Shown: one piece after another, positions 46,697 to 60,828 of the stretch | Position numbering within the stretch: position 1 is the stretch's first letter | Layout: every line of letters begins with the position of its first letter | Origin: Pseudomonadales bacterium | GTDB taxonomy: Bacteria; Pseudomonadota; Gammaproteobacteria; Pseudomonadales; Azotimanducaceae | Assembly: GCA_016763855.1 (NCBI GenBank) | Contig: JAESSY010000137.1 | Span: 1 to 64,000 of the forward strand | Direction: 5' to 3' | DNA length: 64,000 nucleotides | Made by a program: the position numbers and the translations under genes | Notes under the pieces: model-generated | The model's input: the letters and a program-made list of their open reading frames with translations, nothing else | Databases searched by the model: none | What the model was told of the DNA's origin: nothing

Positions 46697-48580
46697 ATGA
46701 CTACGACTTCTAAACCATTAAATGAGCCTATTCAGCGCGACCCGGATACGGGTTTTAAAGTATTCAATACAAAGGCTGAGAATATCACTGGGATCTACGG
46801 ACGCGGCTATGGCGTAGTCACGGATGAATCATTAAAGACCTTGCCGCAGGCTTCGGCAGATGCAGTGTTTGATGCTGATGAGCAAGCAAAATACCAGCAG
46901 TTCAAGGAAGAGAGACGAGGCTCAGCTGATTATATGGCGATGGAAGGAGTGTTTAGTCGTTATTTAGAAGATGCCTATTCCTCTCCGCCAATACCGCGAG
47001 ATGCTTTGAAGGATGAGTGTGAAATACTGGTAGTCGGCGCTGGTTTTGCCGGTCTGCTTCTTTGGTATAAATTGCAAAAAGCGGGCTTTAAGGATGTCAG
47101 GTTTTGTGAGAAAGGCGGTGATGTAGGGGGTACATGGTATTGGAATCGCTATCCCGGCATTGCCTGTGATGTTGAGGCCTATAGCTATCTGCCTCTACTC
47201 GAAGAAATGGGATATATCCCCTCGATGAAATTCGCTGGTGGATTTGAAATCATGGCTTATTGCCAGAAAATGGCAGAGAAATTTTCTTTCTATGACCACT
47301 GTTTATTCCATACAACTGTTGAGAAAACGCAATGGAATGAAGATGAAGGTCGCTGGAGTGTTTTTACCGATCGAGGCGATGAAATGAAGTCGCGATTTGT
47401 CATTCTAGCAAACGGCATATTAACGACACCAAAATTGGCTCGAATAGAGGGCATGGAAGAATTCAAGGGGGATTCGTTTCACACTTCACGTTGGAATTAT
47501 AAACTGGATCTGAAAGATAAACGGATCGGGATTATAGGCACCGGAGCGACAGCGGTGCAGGTGATACCACCGCTTGCAAAGATCGCAAAGGAATTGACGA
47601 TTTTTCAGCGCACGCCATCTTCTATTGATGTTCGAGATCAGAGAGAGACAACAGCCGAGGAGCGAGAAACATGGTCTCAAGAACCGGGTTGGGCCAGAGC
47701 AAGGCGAGCGCGCTTTGCCAAGATTTCAGCCGGTCGAACAGCAATGAAGGCCAACGATGACTATTTAGCGGGCAAAGTGCCAGATTTTAAAGAGCGTAAA
47801 GAGCACGCAAAATCCCTTTCAATGCCTGAGTTGGTCGAAAAACAATTACAATCTAACTTTCGGATTATGGAGCAAATTCGGGGTCGAGTAGATGCCATCG
47901 TTAAAGACCCAGTAACGGCGGCGGCACTCAAGCCTTATTATCCCTACGGATGCAAAAGGCCTACTTTTCATGATGAATATCTACCGGTTTTCAATTTACC
48001 CCACGTAAAATTGGTTGATGCAGCACCTCGTGGTATCAATAAAATTACTGCTACAGGCGTCGTGCATGAAGGAAAAACTTATCCCCTTGATGTGCTTATT
48101 TATGCTACCGGTTTTCAGTGGATGGCAACGTCGACCTTCAACATGGTTGTAGGTTGTGACGGAATCTCTCTAAATGAAAAGTGGCAGCAACAGGGCACTA
48201 AAACTTTTCTGGGTTTGCACAGCAAAGGATTTCCTAACTTGTTCATTGTGTCTGGTCCTCAGGGTGGTGGCGGGAGTTTCAATTTTACAGACGCGATTGA
48301 TGAGCATGCTGACTATATCCTCTGGATGCTAGAAACCCTGCGAGAGAAAGATCTTAATCGCGTTGATATCACGGCGGAGTCAGAAAACGAATATGCAGCA
48401 CATTGCCAGAGTGCTGATATCGTCACAAGTCCATTAAGAGATTGTATTTCCTATTACAACGGACACGGTGAATCAGAGCCTGGAAGTCTCGCTTATTATG
48501 GAGGGGGTGATTGGCACAAGTATCGCTTGAAAGCCCAAAAGACGCTTGAACCGTATATCTTTCAAAAGTCTAAACCCTGA
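46697..48580 (+). CDS. Type I Baeyer-Villiger monooxygenase-like flavoprotein
   Basis: GAGFAGLLLWYKL, GGTWYWNRYPGIACDVEAYSY, FKGDSFHTSRW matches FxGxxxHxxxW, GTGATA. Confidence 0.92.
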   Translation: MTTTSKPLNEPIQRDPDTGFKVFNTKAENITGIYGRGYGVVTDESLKTLPQASADAVFDADEQAKYQQFKEERRGSADYMAMEGVFSRYLEDAYSSPPIPRDALKDECEILVVGAGFAGLLLWYKLQKAGFKDVRFCEKGGDVGGTWYWNRYPGIACDVEAYSYLPLLEEMGYIPSMKFAGGFEIMAYCQKMAEKFSFYDHCLFHTTVEKTQWNEDEGRWSVFTDRGDEMKSRFVILANGILTTPKLARIEGMEEFKGDSFHTSRWNYKLDLKDKRIGIIGTGATAVQVIPPLAKIAKELTIFQRTPSSIDVRDQRETTAEERETWSQEPGWARARRARFAKISAGRTAMKANDDYLAGKVPDFKERKEHAKSLSMPELVEKQLQSNFRIMEQIRGRVDAIVKDPVTAAALKPYYPYGCKRPTFHDEYLPVFNLPHVKLVDAAPRGINKITATGVVHEGKTYPLDVLIYATGFQWMATSTFNMVVGCDGISLNEKWQQQGTKTFLGLHSKGFPNLFIVSGPQGGGGSFNFTDAIDEHADYILWMLETLREKDLNRVDITAESENEYAAHCQSADIVTSPLRDCISYYNGHGESEPGSLAYYGGGDWHKYRLKAQKTLEPYIFQKSKP

Positions 48581-48741
48581 GGTTTGTCCTAAGCTCTGAT
48601 ATTTGACGCTAAATACTTGATTCCGAAAAACTGGGGATTTCAGTGGTAGAGGCCAAACATGATCTCGAATTCTAGGTCGAAGTAGTAGAAACTGCCAAGA
48701 ATTGCTCAAATAACAACTATTTTTAATAAACGGAGGGTTTG

Positions 48742-50094
48742 ATGGCTGTACAACATTTGGAAGCAGACAATACAAAGCGTGAGGCACTAGCGGCGCGACT
48801 GTCCACCGGTGACATGACAGTTTCTAACAAGGAAATCGCCGATGCATTTGAGATTGATCCGCATTTTGATGTCAATAAAATCCCCTTGGATGATATAGAC
48901 CCATCTCACCCTGCCCTATTTGCGAATGATACCGTATGGGATCATTTTGCGAGATTACGTAAAGAAGATCCTGTCCACTATCATAAAGAAAGCAGTGTTG
49001 GCCCTTACTGGTCCGTGACCAAGTATAAAGACATCATGGAAGTGGATAGACAGCATGATGTATTTTCTTCTCAACAAAGATTGGGCGGTATTGTCCTAGG
49101 TGGCGTCGCCAGAGAAGCAGATGATGCATTTGCTTTGCCTATGTTTATTCAGGAAGACCCACCTAAGCACGATGATCAGCGTAAGGTGGTAACACCCATG
49201 TTTATACCCCGTAATCTGGCTGAACTTGAGCCTCTCATTCGAGAACGAATCGGGGTGATCTTGGATGGCCTTCCACGCAATGAAGAGTTCAATTGGGTAG
49301 AACATGTATCAGTTGATCTGACAGCACAGATGTTGGCAACGATATTTGGTATTCCTCAAGAAGATAGAATGAAATTAATACATTGGTCAGATACTGTATC
49401 AAGTTTGCAGGATCCAGAAGTTTTTGAAAATACAGAAGAGGGTTTTAAGGTATTGTTTGAATGCTTGGCTTACTTTACTGAACATTACGAAGCACGTAAA
49501 AAAGAACCCCCCAGATTTGATCTGCTTTCCATGATGGCCCATGATCCTGCTACCAGCAATATGTCACCACAAGAATTGTTGGGGAATGTCCTTTTGTTGA
49601 TTGTCGGTGGAAATGACACCACACGTAATTCAATATCAGGTGGCGTATTAGCCTTGAATAAAAATCCTGATCAATATGAAAAGTTATTACAAAATCCAGG
49701 CTTGATACCCAAGATGATTCCAGAGATTATCCGTTGGCAAACGCCTTTAGCCCATATGGCAAGAACAGCACTGAGAGATGTTGAGCTTGGCGGAAAGCAA
49801 ATTAAGGAAGGAGACCGCGTTGCGATGTGGTATATCTCCGGAAACAGAGATGAAGACTATATTGAGAATGCCGATAAGTTCATTATCGATCGCCCTAATC
49901 CAAGAACCCACACTTCCTTTGGCTACGGTGTCCATCGCTGTGTAGGCAATCGATTAGCAGAAATGCAGTTGAATGTGACTTGGGAAGAGATTAATAAACG
50001 CTTTTCAAAAGTTGAAGTGACGGGTGAACCATTATTACAAAGATCGAGTTTTGTGCATGGTATTCGGGATTTGCCCATTACCCTTCGCGAATAA
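48742..50094 (+). CDS. Cytochrome P450, CYP153-like (alkane hydroxylase type)
   Basis: FANDTVWDHFARLRKEDPVHYHKESSVGPYWSVTKYKDIMEVDRQHDVFSS; GGNDTTRNSISGG; HTSFGYGVHRCVGNRLAEMQLNVTWEEI. Confidence 0.88.
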   Translation: MAVQHLEADNTKREALAARLSTGDMTVSNKEIADAFEIDPHFDVNKIPLDDIDPSHPALFANDTVWDHFARLRKEDPVHYHKESSVGPYWSVTKYKDIMEVDRQHDVFSSQQRLGGIVLGGVAREADDAFALPMFIQEDPPKHDDQRKVVTPMFIPRNLAELEPLIRERIGVILDGLPRNEEFNWVEHVSVDLTAQMLATIFGIPQEDRMKLIHWSDTVSSLQDPEVFENTEEGFKVLFECLAYFTEHYEARKKEPPRFDLLSMMAHDPATSNMSPQELLGNVLLLIVGGNDTTRNSISGGVLALNKNPDQYEKLLQNPGLIPKMIPEIIRWQTPLAHMARTALRDVELGGKQIKEGDRVAMWYISGNRDEDYIENADKFIIDRPNPRTHTSFGYGVHRCVGNRLAEMQLNVTWEEINKRFSKVEVTGEPLLQRSSFVHGIRDLPITLRE

Positions 50095-50102
50095 TTTATA
50101 AC

Positions 50103-52529
50103 TCACTCGTATCGCAATGCTTTGATTGGATTGGCTGTGGCGATTCTAATGGCGTGTATGCCAACGATAAGCCAGGCAAATAGGATGGAGATAAGGCCGG
50201 CCATCGCGATGATCACTGCTTGCATCGTTATCCTGTCAGAAAAGAAATTGAGATATTGCTCAGATGCGAAATAGGCTAAGGGTAAGGCAATGAGCAAGGC
50301 CCACATCACAGGTTTGGAGAACTGAATGATGAGCAGGCTAATAATTTGAAGCATATTGGCACCCATTACTTTTCTGATGCCGATCTCCTTTGTTCGACTC
50401 TGGGCCATAAAGGCTGCGAGTCCGAATAGCCCAATCAAACTCAAAATTAAAGCAACCGCTGCAAACAGTCCCAGTGATTTCATCATGGTATCGAATATCC
50501 GAAACATATCATTGAATACCTTATCTAGAAAAGATGTTTGGATGGGATAGTCTGTAATGACCCTGTCCCAGGTTTCTTCTATTAGTACCAGCGTTTCGGA
50601 TAAGTCCTGATGACTGACTCTAACTGAAGCGTAATCGAAAAAACTAGGACGCAAGTAAAACACCATCGGCTTGTTGGCATTATGAAATCCCACAAAGTTT
50701 TGTGTTGGGGTTACCCCTTTGATAGTGTACGCGCGAGGTTCTCGGGAATTGGGGAAATCGTAAAAGGTTTTACCTAAGGCTTCATTAGCTGATGCATACC
50801 CTAACTTTTCTATTGCTAATTGATTTAGGACCACATTAATGGCAAGCATGTCTTTCAGAAAGATATCGGCTGAATAATCCCTGGATAATGCTCGACCAGC
50901 GATCAATGGAATTTCATAGGTCGATAAAAAGTCTTCATCGACAGAAAGCTGCTTTAATAAAAAGGATAAGTCCTTATTACCTAGCACAGGTCCCGCAGTG
51001 AATGAAGAATTGCCCTGACGATAGGGCAGATCGCTAGAATAGCTTACGTGGCTAACACCAGGGATTTTTTTAAGCTCATTTTTGAGTGAGTCCAATTTAT
51101 TCTGAATTTCTTCAACATCTAGTCTTTGTAAGGTAATAATTTGTGATCGTGGGTAGATATCCCCAGCGTCTTGTACCTTCTTGTTTTGGAAGTAGACTAT
51201 TAAAACGGTTGCCAAAATAAAGATGGATATCGAAAATTGTAGTCCGAGCATAACGCTACGGAATAGGCTTCCTTTTACGCCACTAGCCCCGGCATCTCGT
51301 AAGGCTTCAATGGGCTTTACTCTTGTGACCATATAGGCTGGATAAGCGCCTGCAACCAATCCAACAATGGTTGTTGTTGCAAGCAACCATGGTAAGGTAT
51401 GTAAGTAATTAATTTGAAGTGATTTTTCTGTTAGGTTATTGAAAAGCGGAATGATTATTTCTAGTATGGCCATGGCAATAAACATTGAGATAAAGGCGAT
51501 GACTAATCCTTCGATAAGAAACTGTGCCAACAGTTGTTTCTTATCAGCGCCCATTGTTTTTCTCAAGCCCACTTCTCTGGCTCTACTTAAGGATTGTGCG
51601 GTAGCCAGATTTGTGTAATTGACGATAGCGATTACGAGTACCATGATCGCTAACAATTTGATTGACTCCATAATCGGCAGGCCGATCATTGACCAGATAA
51701 AGGTGTTTGCCTTTGCAAGTGGTAGTACTTTTAATCCTGTAACGAATTCCTTGTGGTCCTCATTCAGATGTTTTTTCCAGATATTATCCATTTGTGTCTG
51801 TAGCCAGGAAAGTGTTTTAGCTGCAGGCAAAAGTATGTAGGTATAATTCCCAGAAGATAGGTTGTTGAAATTTCCTGCAAGATCCCAATCAGCTGCTTTG
51901 TTGAGCGCTGTCAAGGGTGCAACAACTTCGAATTCAAGTCCGCCAATGAGTGCGGAATTAAAATGAGTATTTCGAGGTAGGTTTTTAAACACTGCAGTGA
52001 CATGGAGCGTAGTTTTATGATCGAGCGTAATGAGCTCCCCAATGACGGAGGTGGACCCAAATAGTTTCCTAGCAGTGTTTTCACTTAACAGCACGCCTTC
52101 GGGTTCCTTCAAGGCGTCGCTATTTCCTTCAATGTAATCAAGGTCAAAAATGGTGAGCAGGGCAGGATCAGCGAATCGAATGTCTTGATAATAATTGTCG
52201 TCCCCGACTGTCAGTAAAAATTTTCTGTGTATCGTTCTTGCGATTGATTCTATTTCTTCCACTTCGGCTTTGATAAAGGGAGTGAACCCTGAATAGATAC
52301 TGGGGTCCTGAGAAACGCCTATATTCGCAGTCGGAGAAAAGACGGTACCAACGGTAAATATGCGTTCGAAATTCTTATAAAAAGCATCGTGGTTTTCTTC
52401 ATAGTCGACCAAAAGCGTACCAAAAAGATAGACCGTAAGACCCGTGACAAGGCCCAACATGTTAATGGTGGTATAGAGTTTATTTTTGAATAATTGTCGC
52501 CAGGCGATAAGAATATAATTGTTTAGCAT
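50103..52529 (-). CDS. ABC transporter permease, MacB/FtsX family
   Basis: Two FtsX-type 4-TM blocks (SRAREVGLRKTMGADKKQLLAQFLIE; SRTKEIGIRKVMGANMLQIISLLI) and a MacB-type periplasmic domain. Confidence 0.9.
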   Translation of the reverse strand: MLNNYILIAWRQLFKNKLYTTINMLGLVTGLTVYLFGTLLVDYEENHDAFYKNFERIFTVGTVFSPTANIGVSQDPSIYSGFTPFIKAEVEEIESIARTIHRKFLLTVGDDNYYQDIRFADPALLTIFDLDYIEGNSDALKEPEGVLLSENTARKLFGSTSVIGELITLDHKTTLHVTAVFKNLPRNTHFNSALIGGLEFEVVAPLTALNKAADWDLAGNFNNLSSGNYTYILLPAAKTLSWLQTQMDNIWKKHLNEDHKEFVTGLKVLPLAKANTFIWSMIGLPIMESIKLLAIMVLVIAIVNYTNLATAQSLSRAREVGLRKTMGADKKQLLAQFLIEGLVIAFISMFIAMAILEIIIPLFNNLTEKSLQINYLHTLPWLLATTTIVGLVAGAYPAYMVTRVKPIEALRDAGASGVKGSLFRSVMLGLQFSISIFILATVLIVYFQNKKVQDAGDIYPRSQIITLQRLDVEEIQNKLDSLKNELKKIPGVSHVSYSSDLPYRQGNSSFTAGPVLGNKDLSFLLKQLSVDEDFLSTYEIPLIAGRALSRDYSADIFLKDMLAINVVLNQLAIEKLGYASANEALGKTFYDFPNSREPRAYTIKGVTPTQNFVGFHNANKPMVFYLRPSFFDYASVRVSHQDLSETLVLIEETWDRVITDYPIQTSFLDKVFNDMFRIFDTMMKSLGLFAAVALILSLIGLFGLAAFMAQSRTKEIGIRKVMGANMLQIISLLIIQFSKPVMWALLIALPLAYFASEQYLNFFSDRITMQAVIIAMAGLISILFAWLIVGIHAIRIATANPIKALRYE

Positions 52530-52533
52530 AATA

Positions 52534-53217
52534 TCATCCTGTCGCTCTAAGGTTTTCTGTCACGACATGTCCGTCGAAAAGATTGATTGTTCTTCTTGCG
52601 TAATCCGAGTGGGTAGGACTGTGGGTGACCATCACAATGGTTGTGCCTTCACTGTTCAAGCCTTGCAGCATTTCCATGACTTCCTGGCCATGAGCACTGT
52701 CAAGGTTTCCGGTTGGTTCGTCTGCCAGAATGAGCTTTTGATTGCCGACTACCGCACGGGCAACGGCAACCCGTTGTTGTTGGCCACCAGACAATTGACT
52801 CGGCATGTGTTTCGCTCTGTGCGCGATGCCGACCTTATCCATAATTTGGGCAACCCTGTCTTTACGCTCTTTTTTAGCCATGTCATGGTAAAGAAGCGCC
52901 AGTTCAATATTTTCTGAAACATTTAGCTCGTCAATCAGATTGAATGATTGAAAGATAAAACCGATATTCCTTTTTCGGATTTGACTGAGTTGAGATTCAG
53001 AATGGTTGGATATGTCCTCGTCATTAAAGAAGTATTGTCCTTCTGATGCGGTATCAAGCATGCCGATGATGTTAAGGAGGGTAGATTTTCCACAGCCAGA
53101 CGGGCCCATAATGGCGACAAATTCTCCGGTATCTATTTCGATATTGATGCAATTTAATGCGATGGTTTCGATATCGTTGGTGCGATAAAGTTTTGACAAA
53201 TTGTGCATTTTTAACAT
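52534..53217 (-). CDS. ABC transporter ATP-binding protein, LolD/MacB-like
   Basis: GPSGCGKSTLLNIIGMLD, LSGGQQQRVAVARAVVGNQKLILADEPTGNLD. Confidence 0.95.
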   Translation of the reverse strand: MLKMHNLSKLYRTNDIETIALNCINIEIDTGEFVAIMGPSGCGKSTLLNIIGMLDTASEGQYFFNDEDISNHSESQLSQIRKRNIGFIFQSFNLIDELNVSENIELALLYHDMAKKERKDRVAQIMDKVGIAHRAKHMPSQLSGGQQQRVAVARAVVGNQKLILADEPTGNLDSAHGQEVMEMLQGLNSEGTTIVMVTHSPTHSDYARRTINLFDGHVVTENLRATG

Positions 53218-53241: not shown

Positions 53242-54546
53242 TTAATTATTAGACAAATTCAATCTATCCATTTTTTTAAATCCTGAATACGCGCTCGTGA
53301 CGACCTCTTCTCCAACATCCAAGCCTTCAAGCACTTCGATATAACGAGAATTTCTTCGTCCAAGTTTGATGTTCCTTTTATTGGCTTCAGTACCATTTTG
53401 GGAGAGGGCGAAAATCCAGTTGCCACCGGTATCCTGATAGAATGACCCGTTTGGAATCAGAATGGCATCGCTTGAATCCCCCAGTGTTAAGCGGGTTTGA
53501 ATTGTCTGACCCCTGCGTATGCTTGTTGGCTCGGCACCGGTAAAGAGTAAATCGATGTCAAATTGACTGTTATTGACCTGGGGGTATATTTTACCAATTC
53601 TTAATTGGAATCGATCACCGTCCTTATCAAAGTAAGCGAATTGGCCAATATCTACTCGACCTAAATAGAACTCATCAATGCTGGCGCGTAACTTGAAACT
53701 GTCAGGGTCATCGATTTGCCCAAGGCGTCCGCCTCTTTGAATGCTCTGTCCGACTTCAACATCGAGTCCAGACAATCTGCCAGTGACGGGGGCTCGGACA
53801 TTGAGGGCATCAAGGTTTTGTCTTGCATAAGCAAGATTATTTTCAAGCTGGGCACCCGTCGTTTTTAAGAAATCAAGTTGGGTTTCCTGCAAACGTGCAT
53901 CGGTAGCTTGACTCTCAAGGGTGATAACTTGGCGAGCTTGATGGTATTCGAGTTCATCCTCGGCATCCTCCAACTGGCTTTTTATCACGAGTCCTGCAGA
54001 GTCAAGATCTGATAATCGCTCAACCTGTCGGTTAAGCCGTTTAATTTGATAACTTGTTTCGACCAGGCTGCGTTTGTGTGCGAGTCTGTTTTGTTCTAAT
54101 TGCAATTCGAGGGTGCGCATATTGTTCAGTTGTTCTGTGATCACAGCTTCGTTTCGTGTTACATCGAGTTGAAGAGAAATATTAGAAAGAACAACAATCA
54201 GATCGCCTGCTTCCACATCGGCACCATCTTCTACGAGGCGTTGTTGCACTTGCCCACCTTCCATGACATCGAGGAAAACAGTTTTACGAGGAGTGACCCG
54301 TCCTCGGACGGGAATAAAATCTTCAAACACGCCCTTAGTGACGGGAGAGATAATGATCCGATTGCTGCCAATAACGAGGGATCGCCCGGTATTTGATGAA
54401 ACGCTCATCCAGATCAGAACTGTTCCGGAAAAAATGCCAAGTAAGATGAGAAGTGTTCGAATGGGCAATTTCTTATTCTCTATCACGCGATCCATTCCTG
54501 CTCCAGATATTGCGCTTGGATTTCTCTTTTTGTTCTCAGCTACCAT
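53242..54546 (-). CDS. HlyD/MacA-family periplasmic adaptor
   Basis: N-terminal TM; VRGRVTPRKTVFLDVMEGGQVQQRLVEDGADVEAGDLIVVLSN; coiled-coil; LNVRAPVTGRLSGLDVEVGQSIQRGGRLGQI. Confidence 0.9.
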   Translation of the reverse strand: MVAENKKRNPSAISGAGMDRVIENKKLPIRTLLILLGIFSGTVLIWMSVSSNTGRSLVIGSNRIIISPVTKGVFEDFIPVRGRVTPRKTVFLDVMEGGQVQQRLVEDGADVEAGDLIVVLSNISLQLDVTRNEAVITEQLNNMRTLELQLEQNRLAHKRSLVETSYQIKRLNRQVERLSDLDSAGLVIKSQLEDAEDELEYHQARQVITLESQATDARLQETQLDFLKTTGAQLENNLAYARQNLDALNVRAPVTGRLSGLDVEVGQSIQRGGRLGQIDDPDSFKLRASIDEFYLGRVDIGQFAYFDKDGDRFQLRIGKIYPQVNNSQFDIDLLFTGAEPTSIRRGQTIQTRLTLGDSSDAILIPNGSFYQDTGGNWIFALSQNGTEANKRNIKLGRRNSRYIEVLEGLDVGEEVVTSAYSGFKKMDRLNLSNN

Positions 54547-54603
54547 CTCGAACTTCTTTTCCCTTTTCTTTGTTTTTTAATGTCTGTCTCTTGCTCTAGC
54601 TAC

Positions 54604-54618
54604 GCAATCGGCGTGCCA
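54604..54618 (-). promoter_or_regulatory. Sigma-54 (-24/-12) promoter for the exporter operon
   Basis: Minus strand TGGCACGCCGATTGC, matching TGGCACG-N4-TTGC, ~58 bp upstream of the adaptor start codon. Confidence 0.85.
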
Positions 54619-54680
54619 TATCCTATCTGATTGATTATATTGACTATTATTTTTTAGGTCTGATGCTGAAGCGGGAATAG

Positions 54681-54717
54681 TGTTCATTAACGGACAGGAA
54701 GTGTACGATATCGCACG
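54681..54717. promoter_or_regulatory. Two candidate enhancer-binding-protein sites, 21 bp apart
   Basis: TGTTCATTAACGGACA (54681-54696, dyad) and TGTACGATATCGCACG (54702-54717, dyad-containing), upstream of the sigma-54 promoter. Confidence 0.55.
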
Positions 54718-54801
54718 GTGTGGGTAGTATAAGCTCTATAGACAGGTTAGCCCCAGTGACAACCTCTTTTTATAAAACCGCCAAAGAAAAAATGATTTGA
54801 T

Positions 54802-56211
54802 ATGACTGCAAGTAAAAATAGTCAAAAGGATACATCTATTACTTTTAATACTACGATTCTAATCGTTGATGACGATGAGGATATTCTGGTCGCAGGTAAG
54901 TTGTTATTAAAACGCCACTATACAAAGATCGATACCTGCAACAATCCTACAGACTTGCCCCGACTAATTTCTCTTAATAATTACACCGCTATCATGTTGG
55001 ATATGAATTTTGGCCCAGGAAAATCGAGCGGTGCGGAGGGATTTTACTGGCTAAAGAAAATTCTTGAAATAGATAACGATGCAGTCGTGGTGCTAATTAC
55101 AGCTCATGGGGATGTCGAACTTGCGGTTGAAGCAATGAAGCAAGGCGCGACTGATTTTATATCGAAACCTTGGCAGAATGAAAAATTGGTTGCAACACTT
55201 TCTGCCAGCGTCAAACTTCGTCAGTCTCGATCTGAAACAGCAAAGTTAAAACAAACTAATATTGCCCTCGTCGAAGCAACCGGAGAATCCCGACAATCCA
55301 TGTTGGGGTGCTCTCAGAAAATGAACGAATTGAAAGCCATGATCGCTAAAACAGCGCCAAGCGACGCAAATGTATTGATACTGGGTGAAAATGGTACAGG
55401 TAAAGAATTGGTGGCGAGATTGATCCACCAGCAATCGAGCCGACATAGTGAAGTATTCATGTCGGTTGATTTAGGCGCGATATCGGAATCTCTATTTGAA
55501 TCGGAGTTATTTGGCCATAAAAAAGGTGCGTTTACCGATGCTAATCAAGACAAAGTAGGTAGGATTCAGGCCGCCGATGGCGGCACGTTGTTCTTAGACG
55601 AAATTGGGAATCTACCACTGCATTTACAAGCTAAATTACTTTCTGTTCTGGAGCAAAGACAAGTGATACCAGTTGGATCACACTCTGCCGTTAATTTTGA
55701 TGTCAGGATTGTCGCCGCAACCAATCTCAAAAAAGAAACCTTACAAGATGAAAATTACTTTAGGCAAGATCTACTATTTCGCCTGAATACAGTTGAGCTT
55801 TTACTGCCTTCTTTAAGAGAGCGCTCAGAAGATATTCCTGAGATAGCCAATTACTATCTAGACTACTATTGTAAAAAATATGCTCGGGAGGCGATGACCT
55901 TTTCAGGTCAAGCTTTGGCGAACCTTACTCAATATCATTGGCCGGGTAATGTCAGAGCGCTGAGACATGCTATTGAACGTGCTGTCATACTTGCTGATAA
56001 GAGAATGCTTGATGTGTCCGATTTTCAAACTGAAGCTGAACCTGTTGAGCCTACACCGAGGGCTGAAAGTGAACTTAATTTACAGGAAATCGAAAAAGCA
56101 ACGATAAAACAAGCACTTCTTAAGCGTCGGTATAACATTAGTCATACAGCGAAAGAACTCGGACTAACGCGTGCAGCTTTGTATCGCCGCATGGAAAAGT
56201 ATGGGTTTTAA
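54802..56211 (+). CDS. NtrC-family sigma-54-dependent response regulator
   Basis: Receiver ILIVDDDEDILVAG; GENGTGKELVARLIHQQS; FGHKKGAFTDANQDKVGRI (GAFTDA); Fis-type HTH NISHTAKELGLTRAALYRRMEKYGF. Confidence 0.95.
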   Translation: MTASKNSQKDTSITFNTTILIVDDDEDILVAGKLLLKRHYTKIDTCNNPTDLPRLISLNNYTAIMLDMNFGPGKSSGAEGFYWLKKILEIDNDAVVVLITAHGDVELAVEAMKQGATDFISKPWQNEKLVATLSASVKLRQSRSETAKLKQTNIALVEATGESRQSMLGCSQKMNELKAMIAKTAPSDANVLILGENGTGKELVARLIHQQSSRHSEVFMSVDLGAISESLFESELFGHKKGAFTDANQDKVGRIQAADGGTLFLDEIGNLPLHLQAKLLSVLEQRQVIPVGSHSAVNFDVRIVAATNLKKETLQDENYFRQDLLFRLNTVELLLPSLRERSEDIPEIANYYLDYYCKKYAREAMTFSGQALANLTQYHWPGNVRALRHAIERAVILADKRMLDVSDFQTEAEPVEPTPRAESELNLQEIEKATIKQALLKRRYNISHTAKELGLTRAALYRRMEKYGF

Positions 56212-57565
56212 TCATTTCATTGTTAGTCTGAGTATTCGCCTGGCATTTATCATGCTCAGTCTAGCCGTGGCAGTTTACTTAATGATCACTCCAGGCTATC
56301 CCGTTGCGACCTTGGTCATGATGACAATTATTGCTGCGCTCATATTTAATCTGTTTAGATTTATTACGCGAACCAATCAAGAACTAGCTAGGTTTTTAGG
56401 TGCGACTCGTTATGCTGATTTTAGTCAGCGTTTTGTATTTGATGATGTGGGCGCTGGTTTCAATGAATTGGGAGACACATTTACTCAAATATTAGATCGT
56501 TTTCGACAGGATAGAAAAGAGCAAGAAAGCGAGCTGCGTCACCTAAAAGCCTTGCTTGAACACGTGCCAGTTCCTTTGATCTCGCTCCACGGGGATGAGA
56601 CAATTACACTCTGGAATAACGCATCGAGGAGACTATTTGGTACTGCGAAAATAGCAGTTCGTGATGATCTGAAATTGTTTGGTCACGCATTACACGATCA
56701 GGTTTCCGACGTTCAGCCGGGTGAAAAACGTTTGGTAGAAGTGACATTTGATGGTGAAAAACAGAGGCTCAATGTTACGGCGAGTGAAATCATCATTTCA
56801 TCTAAACACGAAAAATTAATTGCCCTACAAAATATTCAAAGTGAACTTGATGGGATGCAAATGCATGCCTGGCAGGATTTGCTAAGAGTGCTTACCCATG
56901 AAATAGTTAATTCAATCACGCCTGTCTCTTCTCTCGCTTATACCGCTGCGGATCTTGTTGAAGATGCCAAGAATAAATTCTCCGATCACCCAGAGATTCA
57001 GGTAGATCTGAAAGATGTAAAAGAAGCAGTTATGATCGTTGCTCGCCGCTCAGATGGATTGTTAAATTTCATACGAAGTTATCGGCGTTTTTCTGATTTT
57101 ACTGCTCCTAAAGTAGAACGATTTCCTATAAAAGATCTTTTCAGCGATATCACAAAACTTATTAATGCTGATTGGCAAGGCAACATTAAAGGCGGCGAAA
57201 TCCATTTAACGGTTCGAGTGAATCCCTCAACCTTAGCCCTTGATGCTGATAGGCAGATGATAGAGCAGCTGCTGATTAATCTATTGCAAAATTCAGAACA
57301 AGCACTACGAGAATCTGACACCAAAAAGGTGGAGTTGTATGCGTACATTAATAAACAAGGGCGTATTAGCATTGAAGTGAGTGACACAGGCCCTGGAATC
57401 ACTGATGAACATGTGGACAAAATATTTGTGCCTTTTTTTACGACACGTAAGCATGGTAGCGGCGTGGGTTTAGCTTTGAGCCGACAAATTATGAATGCCC
57501 ACGGTGGCACGATTAACTATACTAGTCAGTCCAAAGAGGGAGCTAAGTTTCTCTTGGTATTTTGA
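56201..57565 (+). CDS. Sensor histidine kinase
   Basis: Two N-terminal TMs, PAS-like region, LLRVLTHEIVNSITPVSSL H-box, GPGITDEHVDKIFVPFFTTRKHGSGVGLALSRQI; start overlaps upstream stop by 11 nt. Confidence 0.92.
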   Translation: MGFNHFIVSLSIRLAFIMLSLAVAVYLMITPGYPVATLVMMTIIAALIFNLFRFITRTNQELARFLGATRYADFSQRFVFDDVGAGFNELGDTFTQILDRFRQDRKEQESELRHLKALLEHVPVPLISLHGDETITLWNNASRRLFGTAKIAVRDDLKLFGHALHDQVSDVQPGEKRLVEVTFDGEKQRLNVTASEIIISSKHEKLIALQNIQSELDGMQMHAWQDLLRVLTHEIVNSITPVSSLAYTAADLVEDAKNKFSDHPEIQVDLKDVKEAVMIVARRSDGLLNFIRSYRRFSDFTAPKVERFPIKDLFSDITKLINADWQGNIKGGEIHLTVRVNPSTLALDADRQMIEQLLINLLQNSEQALRESDTKKVELYAYINKQGRISIEVSDTGPGITDEHVDKIFVPFFTTRKHGSGVGLALSRQIMNAHGGTINYTSQSKEGAKFLLVF

Positions 57566-57670: not shown

Positions 57671-59173
57671 ATGTCTGTTGACCATTCCTCGGAGCAATCA
57701 CCGAGTACTGCCGAAAACATTTTTGACGTTCTCATTGTTGGTGCGGGGATCTCAGGAATTGGAGCAGCTTATCACTTGCAGGATCAGACCCCAGGGACTT
57801 CTTTTCTAGTATTGGAAACCCTTGATGACTTTGGTGGAACTTGGCTGACCCACACCTATCCAGGCATAAGGTCAGATAGTGATCTCTACACCTTCGGGTA
57901 TCGCTTTAAACCCTGGGTTGGAGCGCCGATAGCGTCTGCAGAGGAAATTCTTAACTATATGGGTGAGGTCATTGATGAAAATGACTTAGATAAACATATT
58001 CGATATCAACATCATATCGATTCAGCGAATTGGTGCAGTACCCATAAACAATGGACCCTCAAAGGTCACCGGAAAGATACTGGGGAATCTGTGACTTTTA
58101 TCAGTAATTTTCTATGGATGTGTCAGGGCTATTATGAGCATGCCAAAGGATATACCCCGGAATGGCCTGGCATGGATAAGTTTGAAGGAGAGATTATTCA
58201 TCCTCAAACCTGGCCTAAAGATCTGGATTACAAAAACAAGAAAGTTATTGTCATTGGCTCTGGAGCTACTGCCGCAACATTGGTTCCTGCGATTGCTGCT
58301 GACTGTGAACACGTTACCGTCTTACAGCGTTCACCAACTTATTTTATTCCTGGTCGAAATGAGAATGAAATGGCAGATCAATTGAGACGTCTTGAAATTG
58401 ATGAGACATGGATTCATGAAATTGTCCGGCGTCAAATTTTGTTTGATCAAGCAGAGTTCACTCGTCTGGCTATAGAAGAACCCGAGTTTGCAAAAACCGA
58501 ATTACTCAATGGTGTAAGAGAATATCTGGGCCCAGACTACGATATCGATAAACACTTTACTCCGCGCTACCGACCATGGCGACAACGAATTGCTTTTGTA
58601 CCAGATGGAGATATCTTTAAAGGCATCACCTCCGGTGCAGCGAGTATGGTTACCGATGAAATTGAATCATTTACAAAAGAAGGTATCTTGTTGAAATCTG
58701 GTGATTTACTAAAAGCTGATATTATTATGACAGCGACGGGTTTCAATCTAAGCGTTCTCGGCGGAATCGAATTCTCTGTTGACGATAAACAGGTTGATTT
58801 TGCTGATACAGTAACTTATCGCGGAATGATGTTTACCGGCGTCCCTAACATGGTTTGGATTTTTGGGTATTTTCGTGCCAGTTGGACACTGCGAGTCGAT
58901 ATTATCGCAGATTTTGTGTGTCGTTTACTGACGCACATGAAGTCTAATGATGTGAGTTCGGTTGAAGCAGCACTCCGACCAGAAGACATGGATATGCCCA
59001 AACTGCCTTGGATGGATCCTGAAAACTTTAATCCGGGTTACCTAATGCGTTCCATGCATTTAATGCCCAAACGAGGAGATAAACCTGAATGGCAGCACAC
59101 TCAGGATTATTGGCTTGAGAAAGATGAGCTGCCGAAGATTGACCTTAAGGACAGCGTGTTTGTGTACAAATAG
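57671..59173 (+). CDS. Flavin-containing monooxygenase, AlmA/BVMO-like
   Basis: DVLIVGAGISGIGAAYHL, GGTWLTHTYPGIRSDSDLYTFGYRFKPW, FEGEIIHPQTW (FxGxxxHxxxW). Confidence 0.9.
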   Translation: MSVDHSSEQSPSTAENIFDVLIVGAGISGIGAAYHLQDQTPGTSFLVLETLDDFGGTWLTHTYPGIRSDSDLYTFGYRFKPWVGAPIASAEEILNYMGEVIDENDLDKHIRYQHHIDSANWCSTHKQWTLKGHRKDTGESVTFISNFLWMCQGYYEHAKGYTPEWPGMDKFEGEIIHPQTWPKDLDYKNKKVIVIGSGATAATLVPAIAADCEHVTVLQRSPTYFIPGRNENEMADQLRRLEIDETWIHEIVRRQILFDQAEFTRLAIEEPEFAKTELLNGVREYLGPDYDIDKHFTPRYRPWRQRIAFVPDGDIFKGITSGAASMVTDEIESFTKEGILLKSGDLLKADIIMTATGFNLSVLGGIEFSVDDKQVDFADTVTYRGMMFTGVPNMVWIFGYFRASWTLRVDIIADFVCRLLTHMKSNDVSSVEAALRPEDMDMPKLPWMDPENFNPGYLMRSMHLMPKRGDKPEWQHTQDYWLEKDELPKIDLKDSVFVYK

Positions 59174-59218
59174 TCGGAGTTGATTGTGCCAGTTAGCGAT
59201 TACATTTTCAGCACTTGG

Positions 59219-59659
59219 CTACATCAATGCAAGTGCCCCTCGAATGATCATTGCTAACAATGCAAGTGAGGCGAGGGCGAAGATTGAAAATCTTACAAGC
59301 ACGTGATTTGTGGTGCCGTGAACTACACTGTGAACGACTCGTGCTGCAACGTAAAACCAGGCTAACCCTGTATTGATCTCATCTCCGAGCCCGGCTACTG
59401 CCAGGGCAATTACAATTGCGTAGAAAAGAGTCGGTTGTTCTAAGAGATGGTTGTAATTGTCAGCTTTCCACTGAACTTCTTTGGGTAGTTGTGCGGCCAA
59501 TTCAGATGTACGTTGTCCTGCATCGGGACCTAGTTTTGCGGCGCTAATCGCCGGTAGACGCGTGACTACCATCCATGTCATTACAACAAAAGTCCAAAGA
59601 CCCAGACAAAAAACGGGTAACAGGATAGGAGAGGCGCCAAGACCAAGAGAATCTAACAT
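59219..59659 (-). CDS. MAPEG family protein
   Basis: Four TM segments; VQWKADNYNHLLEQPTLFYAIVIALAVAG ... AWFYVAARVVHSVVHGTTNHVLVRFSIFALA. Confidence 0.85.
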   Translation of the reverse strand: MLDSLGLGASPILLPVFCLGLWTFVVMTWMVVTRLPAISAAKLGPDAGQRTSELAAQLPKEVQWKADNYNHLLEQPTLFYAIVIALAVAGLGDEINTGLAWFYVAARVVHSVVHGTTNHVLVRFSIFALASLALLAMIIRGALALM

Positions 59660-59706
59660 AAGTGTTTCCTTTTAGTTATTTTTAAGCATTATGGCGTGTT
59701 GTTGAC

Positions 59707-60828
59707 TTAGATGGAACACCTTTGCTTGCACCATGCCGTGATCATATCAGCGTGTTTGTCTCGTGCATCGACAGGATATGTCAGATAATGATCGCCTTCA
59801 GTTAATGCGAGTTCTTTATCCTTGCTGCCTATTAAATCAAATATGTTTCTTGCATCTCCAGGGAAAACGCCCGTATCGGACAAAGATTGGATGACAAGCG
59901 TAGGTAAAGTGATTTTCGCCAAGTGCGGCGCGCCGCGACAAGGTGAGCTCTTAAGGCTCCACATGCTGAGCCAGGTTCTCAAAGTATTATTCAGGCCGAT
60001 TCCTCGGGGCCCAAAATTAGATTTTTCTGGATTACCCGCATAACATATGCCGACCTTTCTATCCGATGGGTCAATAGTGCCATCCATCAAGCGAAGATCT
60101 GCCCAGGTTCTGTACATATTGAATGCACGATCGACCATACCGTGTTCCTGAAGGCGGTCGAGTTCAGCATATACCCAATCAGTAATTTTGTGATTTCTTG
60201 TTACCTGGGCAGCGCGATATTTTGAGATAAATTCAGGAGAGTAAGGAGGGCCATTTTCAGGATTGTACATATTGAGCGCTTGATCAATACTACAAGGGTC
60301 GTTTTCATTGCTAATGGATGGATCCATCCAGTCGGTGAGTACTTCCGGTCGACCTGAGTGCGCACAAAGAGACACATAGTAATCCCCGGGTATTAGCTCA
60401 CTAGCCGCATCGGGCACCTTTAGCCCCGGTGTTGCTTCAAGAATCGGATCAACTGCTTGAGAGTGATAAGCCGCCATAAGTGATCCTCCGCCAGAGTTGC
60501 CGAGCAGGACTACATGTTCAACACCTGCAACTTCTTTTAACCATCGCACCCCCGCACCAATGTCAATCAGCGCATACTCAAGCAAAAAGAAAGCCTCGTT
60601 GCCTCTAAAACGTGTGTTCCAACCAAGGAAGCCGAATCCACGTTTCGCCAAGTACTCTCCAAGATAATGTTCACTGAAATCGACATTGTAGTGGCTAGCG
60701 ATAAATGCAGTTTTAGGCTTTTCACCGCTTGGGCTTAGATAGAGTCCCTGACAGGGATGAAAGCCCGCGCCATTTCGACGACCCTTAGGGGATTCAATAG
60801 CAACAAACTGACGATCTATGTTGTGCAT
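59707..60828 (-). CDS. Alpha/beta hydrolase family protein
   Basis: VVLLGNSGGGSLMAAYHSQAV nucleophile region; LPTLVIQSLSDTGVFPGDARNIFDLIGSKDKELALTEGDHYLTYP. Confidence 0.8.
   Translation of the reverse strand: MHNIDRQFVAIESPKGRRNGAGFHPCQGLYLSPSGEKPKTAFIASHYNVDFSEHYLGEYLAKRGFGFLGWNTRFRGNEAFFLLEYALIDIGAGVRWLKEVAGVEHVVLLGNSGGGSLMAAYHSQAVDPILEATPGLKVPDAASELIPGDYYVSLCAHSGRPEVLTDWMDPSISNENDPCSIDQALNMYNPENGPPYSPEFISKYRAAQVTRNHKITDWVYAELDRLQEHGMVDRAFNMYRTWADLRLMDGTIDPSDRKVGICYAGNPEKSNFGPRGIGLNNTLRTWLSMWSLKSSPCRGAPHLAKITLPTLVIQSLSDTGVFPGDARNIFDLIGSKDKELALTEGDHYLTYPVDARDKHADMITAWCKQRCSI

Follow-up and report, generated by a model that had tools for sequence, protein, structure and literature searches.

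The window, by which we mean the whole 64-kb stretch of DNA analysed here, carries a five-gene module in which genes for a sensor histidine kinase and an NtrC-type response regulator are read divergently from a predicted operon encoding a periplasmic adaptor, an ABC ATPase and a duplicated permease (Table 1). A predicted sigma-54 promoter and two predicted regulator-binding dyads lie in the intergenic region, between the regulator and adaptor genes.

Table 1. Genes and predicted control features of the exporter module (window coordinates)
Feature	Position	Strand	Basis
Duplicated FtsX/MacB-type permease (ADOP/DarB-like), last operon gene	50103..52529	minus	Two FtsX domains and MacB_PCD
ABC ATPase, MacB/LolD/DarD type	52534..53217	minus	Domain and family matches
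Membrane-fusion (periplasmic adaptor) protein, first operon gene	53242..54546	minus	HlyD/RND_mfp matches; best NCBIfam score DarC, under cut-off
Sigma-54 (-24/-12) promoter, predicted	54604..54618	minus	TGGCACGCCGATTGC; exact consensus
Promoter-proximal dyad, predicted NtrC-type regulator site	54681..54696	minus	TGTTCATTAACGGACA; exporter-strand reading TGTCCGTTAATGAACA; conserved in orthologues
Promoter-distal dyad	54702..54717	minus	TGTACGATATCGCACG; exporter-strand reading CGTGCGATATCGTACA; 21 bp from proximal dyad
NtrC-type response regulator / enhancer-binding protein	54802..56211	plus	Pfam: receiver, sigma-54 AAA+ (GAFTDA), Fis-type HTH
Sensor histidine kinase	56171..57565	plus	Two N-terminal TM helices, very short loop, PAS, HATPase

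The exporter proteins form the same set of components (adaptor, ATPase and FtsX/MacB-type permease) as those of DarBCD, ADOP and MacAB systems. Their best NCBIfam scores were to DarC for the adaptor, DarD for the ATPase and ADOP, followed by DarB, for the permease, which also matched MacB by sequence in the PDB. All of these scores lie under the equivalog or subfamily cut-offs (221 bits against an equivalog cut-off of 450 for DarC, 282 against 375 for DarD and 90 against 700 for DarB), which places the genes outside DarBCD as these models define it. In MacB, one protein combines the ATPase with a single four-helix FtsX permease, whereas the window encodes its ATPase in a separate gene and its permease has a pair of FtsX domains. 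The substrate is probably a peptide or membrane-active compound, and 'efflux', the term used in the original prediction, is a fair one, although the cargo might be a product for export instead of a drug. Genes for a P450, two Baeyer-Villiger-type flavin monooxygenases, a MAPEG protein and a hydrolase flank the module (46697-50094 and 57671-60828). None of the window's outer neighbours is conserved among the 80 orthologous loci described below, hence the P450, flavin monooxygenase and MAPEG genes give no guide to the substrate, and the P450 and flavin monooxygenase genes were rejected as parts of the module.

The promoter element fits TGGCAC-N5-TTGC exactly, with the GG and GC of the -24 and -12 elements correctly spaced, as is expected of sigma-54 promoters, and is the sole exact occurrence of this pattern in the window; the 4.14-Mb genome contains nine, versus three for a reversed control pattern. 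The start codon of the adaptor gene, at 54546, lies 58 nt 3′ of this site, and the start-to-start step of the two dyads is exactly 21 bp. The -24/-12 site with its leader of about 58 bp, and the dyads two helical turns apart, are thus all where the original prediction had placed them. The consensus of the orthologues is TGTTCG-N4-CGTACA, present twice, compared with which the window dyads are weaker (9 and 10 of 12 half-site letters); single dyads equally loose occur in the window at chance level (19 found, 20.2 expected). The window alone is therefore no proof, and the decisive evidence must come from relatives; it is because of their conservation in orthologues that we accept the dyads as real.

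The domain composition of the divergent gene product confirms the predicted NtrC-type activator with GAFTDA, a variant of the canonical sigma-54-contact loop, GAFTGA. Among the named NCBIfam equivalogs shown, the regulator scored under the cut-off of every one. In 74 regulators (the orthologues in loci L106-L185), the second glycine of the loop is replaced by D in 29 and by N in two, with at least seven such changes on the regulator tree. The substitutions G266D and G266N at the equivalent position of NorR lead to constitutive activity (PMC2941729), and one could speculate, although we think it unlikely, that in the GAFTDA and GAFTNA orthologues the basal activity of the AAA+ domain is likewise raised. 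An association of the GAFT[D/N]A loop with the identity of the -12 base was considered and rejected: all 31 D/N loci have GC at the -12 element, yet this pattern is confounded by descent, because the non-GC promoters nearly all belong to one Alteromonadales-type clade.

The kinase gene is listed with a GTG start that overlaps the regulator gene; a conserved Met (MGF...) lies about ten codons inward. Its two hydrophobic N-terminal helices are joined by few residues, around TPGY in the window and around PGYHAAT in many orthologues; hydropathy indicates a protein without a periplasmic domain. The genome itself encodes RpoN, as judged by a Sigma54_DBD match in a 515-aa frame on contig C78, and gives ten strong sigma-54-activator matches, i.e. 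about ten enhancer-binding proteins. Sigma54_DBD is matched a second time by a 239-aa frame located at the end of a contig (L054; G000 contig C176:9198-9671); this frame is either another rpoN copy or an assembly fragment.

Orthologous loci (80, from named genomes) were collected by an adaptor-protein alignment scan, being picked by adaptor similarity alone with DNA motifs ignored. They come from Gammaproteobacteria (Pseudomonadales and Halieaceae MAGs, Woeseiaceae, Colwellia, Thalassotalea, Paraglaciecola, Neiella and Psychrosphaera) and Alphaproteobacteria (Kordiimonas, Eilatimonas and Pseudokordiimonas). Cultured environmental strains with the module include Kordiimonas marina, Colwellia demingiae and Thalassotalea algicola. 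A divergent regulator orthologue is present in 74 loci and a kinase orthologue in 73, and the full order, with kinase and regulator divergent from adaptor, ATPase and permease, is seen in 70. Ten loci do not show this order: L113, L114 and L117 lack the regulator despite ample DNA, and the remaining seven are truncated at or close to the end of a contig.

One outcome that the original prediction named as refuting it was lack of conservation of the motif in orthologous intergenic regions, and the prediction withstood this test. Conservation was examined in the 78 loci with 450 bp upstream, a pair being scored where at least 18 of the 24 half-site letters agreed. The pair was found in 75, upstream of a sigma-54-like site, with a score of at least 21 in 71 regions and of 20-24 in most; its spacing is exactly 21 bp in 67 of the 75, and a -24/-12-like element occupies the equivalent position in 75 of the 78. 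Among 390 first-order shuffles the highest score was 18, reached once, and the reversed motif gave at most 17. These locus counts are not independent, since the loci are related by descent. Alignment of 59 non-redundant loci on the dyads gave an average of 1.75 bits for the half-sites versus 0.16 for the flanks; because this alignment is anchored on the motif, the shuffle test is the fair control. Orthologues from the same family repeat both dyads and the -24/-12 site, as in L014, where TGTTCGTAATCGTACA and TGTTCGGAATCGAACA lie 21 bp apart and are accompanied by TGGCACGGCTGTTGC. The three regions lacking dyads are those of L113, L114 and L117, complete loci without the regulator, where loss of the dyads and of the promoter is not independent because the whole upstream region has been lost. 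More distant adaptor homologues without a divergent regulator (L018-L020 and L101-L103) are also without dyads.

In loci of the Colwellia/Thalassotalea/Paraglaciecola type the -12 element is TTGT, TTGA or TTGG in place of TTGC (L133, L137, L138, L142, L146, L148-L150, L152, L153, L156, L157, L159, L160, L163, L164, L166, L167, L169, L171, L174, L175, L177, L179 and L185), and most of these have dyads at the same distance; use of sigma-54 is less certain in such loci because the element departs from the consensus.

The separation of enhancer and promoter, taken as the distance between the distal dyad's start and the -24 T, is 99 bp in the window. It falls at 98-102 bp in 52 loci and at 88-92 bp in 18, so that the main classes, at about 89 and 100 bp, are roughly one helical turn apart; distances of 80 and 113 bp (one locus each) and 121-124 bp (three loci) are rarer. 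The class changes at least seven times on the regulator tree, which provides about seven natural shifts of enhancer position, mostly following the helical repeat. Shifts of about one to two helical turns would fit an activator and polymerase placed on one face of the DNA, an argument that is suggestive, since the independent shifts are few (about seven) and some are off by 2-3 bp.

The dyad pair occurs at one site in its own genome, that of the window, and no second pair was found there with up to three mismatches allowed, on which ground a wider regulon in this genome was rejected. Searches using the dyad pair alone gave matches in 12 of 392 genomes of the order, five beside the regulator and seven inside coding frames, and eight matches in 399 genomes of the phylum, six of them in regulator/adaptor intergenic regions; a few matches to the reversed control pattern likewise turned up in the phylum sample. 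The 'self-contained, locally wired' arrangement that had been proposed is supported, in that the pair is unique in its own genome and convincing sites elsewhere, in both pattern-only searches, lie only beside the regulator. In one genome (G318), the dyads at L204 adjoin the regulator, and the divergent genes include an ATPase and permease with no adaptor orthologue. Other matches in G318, of which one (L205) is near a gene start, were set aside as background because they score below L204 and none is followed by a good sigma-54 site. At L209 (G095 contig C3, 1-9000) a dyad pair and a perfect -24/-12 site stand beside a regulator of the same type; downstream come small frames and then large unrelated proteins, one of 586 aa whose N-terminus is repeat-like (QQKRDGSWG) and one of more than 1850 aa, with no exporter genes within the 9 kb. 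L204 and L209 show predicted dyads following the regulator where the divergent genes differ.

On this evidence, 54604-54717 is very likely to be the control element of the five-gene module, acting as a single-target, two-component sigma-54 switch for a MacB/DarBCD-like exporter; the switch as such is deeply conserved, very probably real and probably single-target, and both the original observation and the reading given to it stand. Alternatively, the dyads could be mainly autoregulatory, with the regulator controlling its own divergent promoter and the exporter sigma-54 promoter being activated from another location or by looping from an arbitrary site. The dyads do always adjoin the regulator gene, even with the other divergent genes of L204 and L209; however, the distance that is held is to the exporter promoter and not obviously to the regulator start, and a search for a sigma-70 promoter for the regulator in the intergenic region found nothing above chance (one weak match, 0.5 expected). 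We consider autoregulation improbable as the main function of the dyads, and it may coexist with exporter control. A still less probable explanation is that another transcription factor binds the dyads, the divergent NtrC-type gene being a linked passenger. Consistent with this, the motif was not found described for any sigma-54 activator in open-licence PMC papers, but dyads and regulator accompany each other in both Alpha- and Gammaproteobacteria and are also missing together, and two phased dyads upstream of a -24/-12 site are the standard layout for enhancer-binding proteins. The intergenic region might also be an ordinary divergent one in which the -24/-12 and dyad matches arose by chance, as could be argued from the chance-level single dyads of the window and from exact -24/-12 matches occurring about once per 460 kb of the genome; this is scarcely credible and was rejected given the fixed-spacing conservation in 75 of 78 regions against shuffled and reversed-motif controls.

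For the exporter switch, the parts and their order, the conserved dyads and their spacing, the promoter, rpoN in the genome and the uniqueness of the site can be read directly from sequence, and the co-occurrence of dyads and regulator argues strongly that the regulator binds the predicted sites. In the mechanism that we propose, the kinase, with its two-helix membrane anchor and almost no periplasmic domain, would sense a signal in or at the inner membrane and phosphorylate the regulator; the active regulator would then occupy the two dyads next to each other on the same face of the helix. The later steps are modelled on the protein families concerned: the AAA+ ring would assemble and loop to the RNA polymerase-sigma-54 complex waiting at 54618-54604, promoter opening would allow the adaptor, ATPase and permease genes to be transcribed as one operon from a presumed start near 54592, about 12 nt beyond the -12 element, and the exporter would pump its putative substrate out.

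Like NtrC, ZraR, AtoC and PrsR, the regulator combines receiver, AAA+ and Fis HTH domains with paired upstream dyads and a -24/-12 promoter; unlike these named members of the NtrC family, the module has its own predicted dyad, TGTTCG-N4-CGTACA, and about a third of the orthologues carry GAFTDA. The pairing of a two-TM, short-loop kinase with an FtsX-family ABC transporter is also found in the Bce modules of Firmicutes (BceRS-BceAB). Unlike those modules, that of the window has an NtrC-type, predicted sigma-54-dependent regulator, an adaptor and a duplicated FtsX/MacB-type permease. The Bce permease has ten TM helices with a large loop between TM7 and TM8, whereas two FtsX domains and a MacB-type periplasmic core, seen as domain matches, suggest a different topology for the window permease. 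Intramembrane-sensing kinases have a loop of 3-11 residues (PMC3023708), and the window kinase, judged by hydropathy and by eye around TPGY, has two TM helices and a loop in about this range; we take its likeness to Bce kinases as resemblance, not membership. One could speculate that the exporter itself, or a substrate caught in it, is the sensor, the kinase reading its state through the membrane and adjusting exporter synthesis via one dedicated enhancer, as a Gram-negative, sigma-54-wired counterpart of Bce; we think this unlikely.

A 2025 survey reported that FtsX-like permeases (COG0577) are enriched for sigma-54 promoters in Gammaproteobacteria, Opitutia and Bacteroidia, and described this as the first evidence of such a link; its passages on these permeases name no regulator, upstream dyads or two-component wiring (PMC12316311). 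For the sigma-54 control of FtsX-like exporters that the survey predicts, the present module would supply both a regulator and an enhancer. No paper on the regulator, the motif or the module was found among open-licence PMC papers, and the module appears to be uncharacterised, with parts of known types; the novelty is modest, since all of the parts are of known kinds. A two-component system recurrent in many marine Alpha- and Gammaproteobacteria thereby gains a predicted motif, a fixed enhancer geometry and a single target, which should make direct tests of the inducing signal and exporter cargo easy.

Some relatives have two permeases: at least two large FtsX-type permease genes follow the ATPase gene in 23 of the 65 loci with enough downstream DNA (L106, L108, L110, L118, L125, L141 and others), and the window has one.
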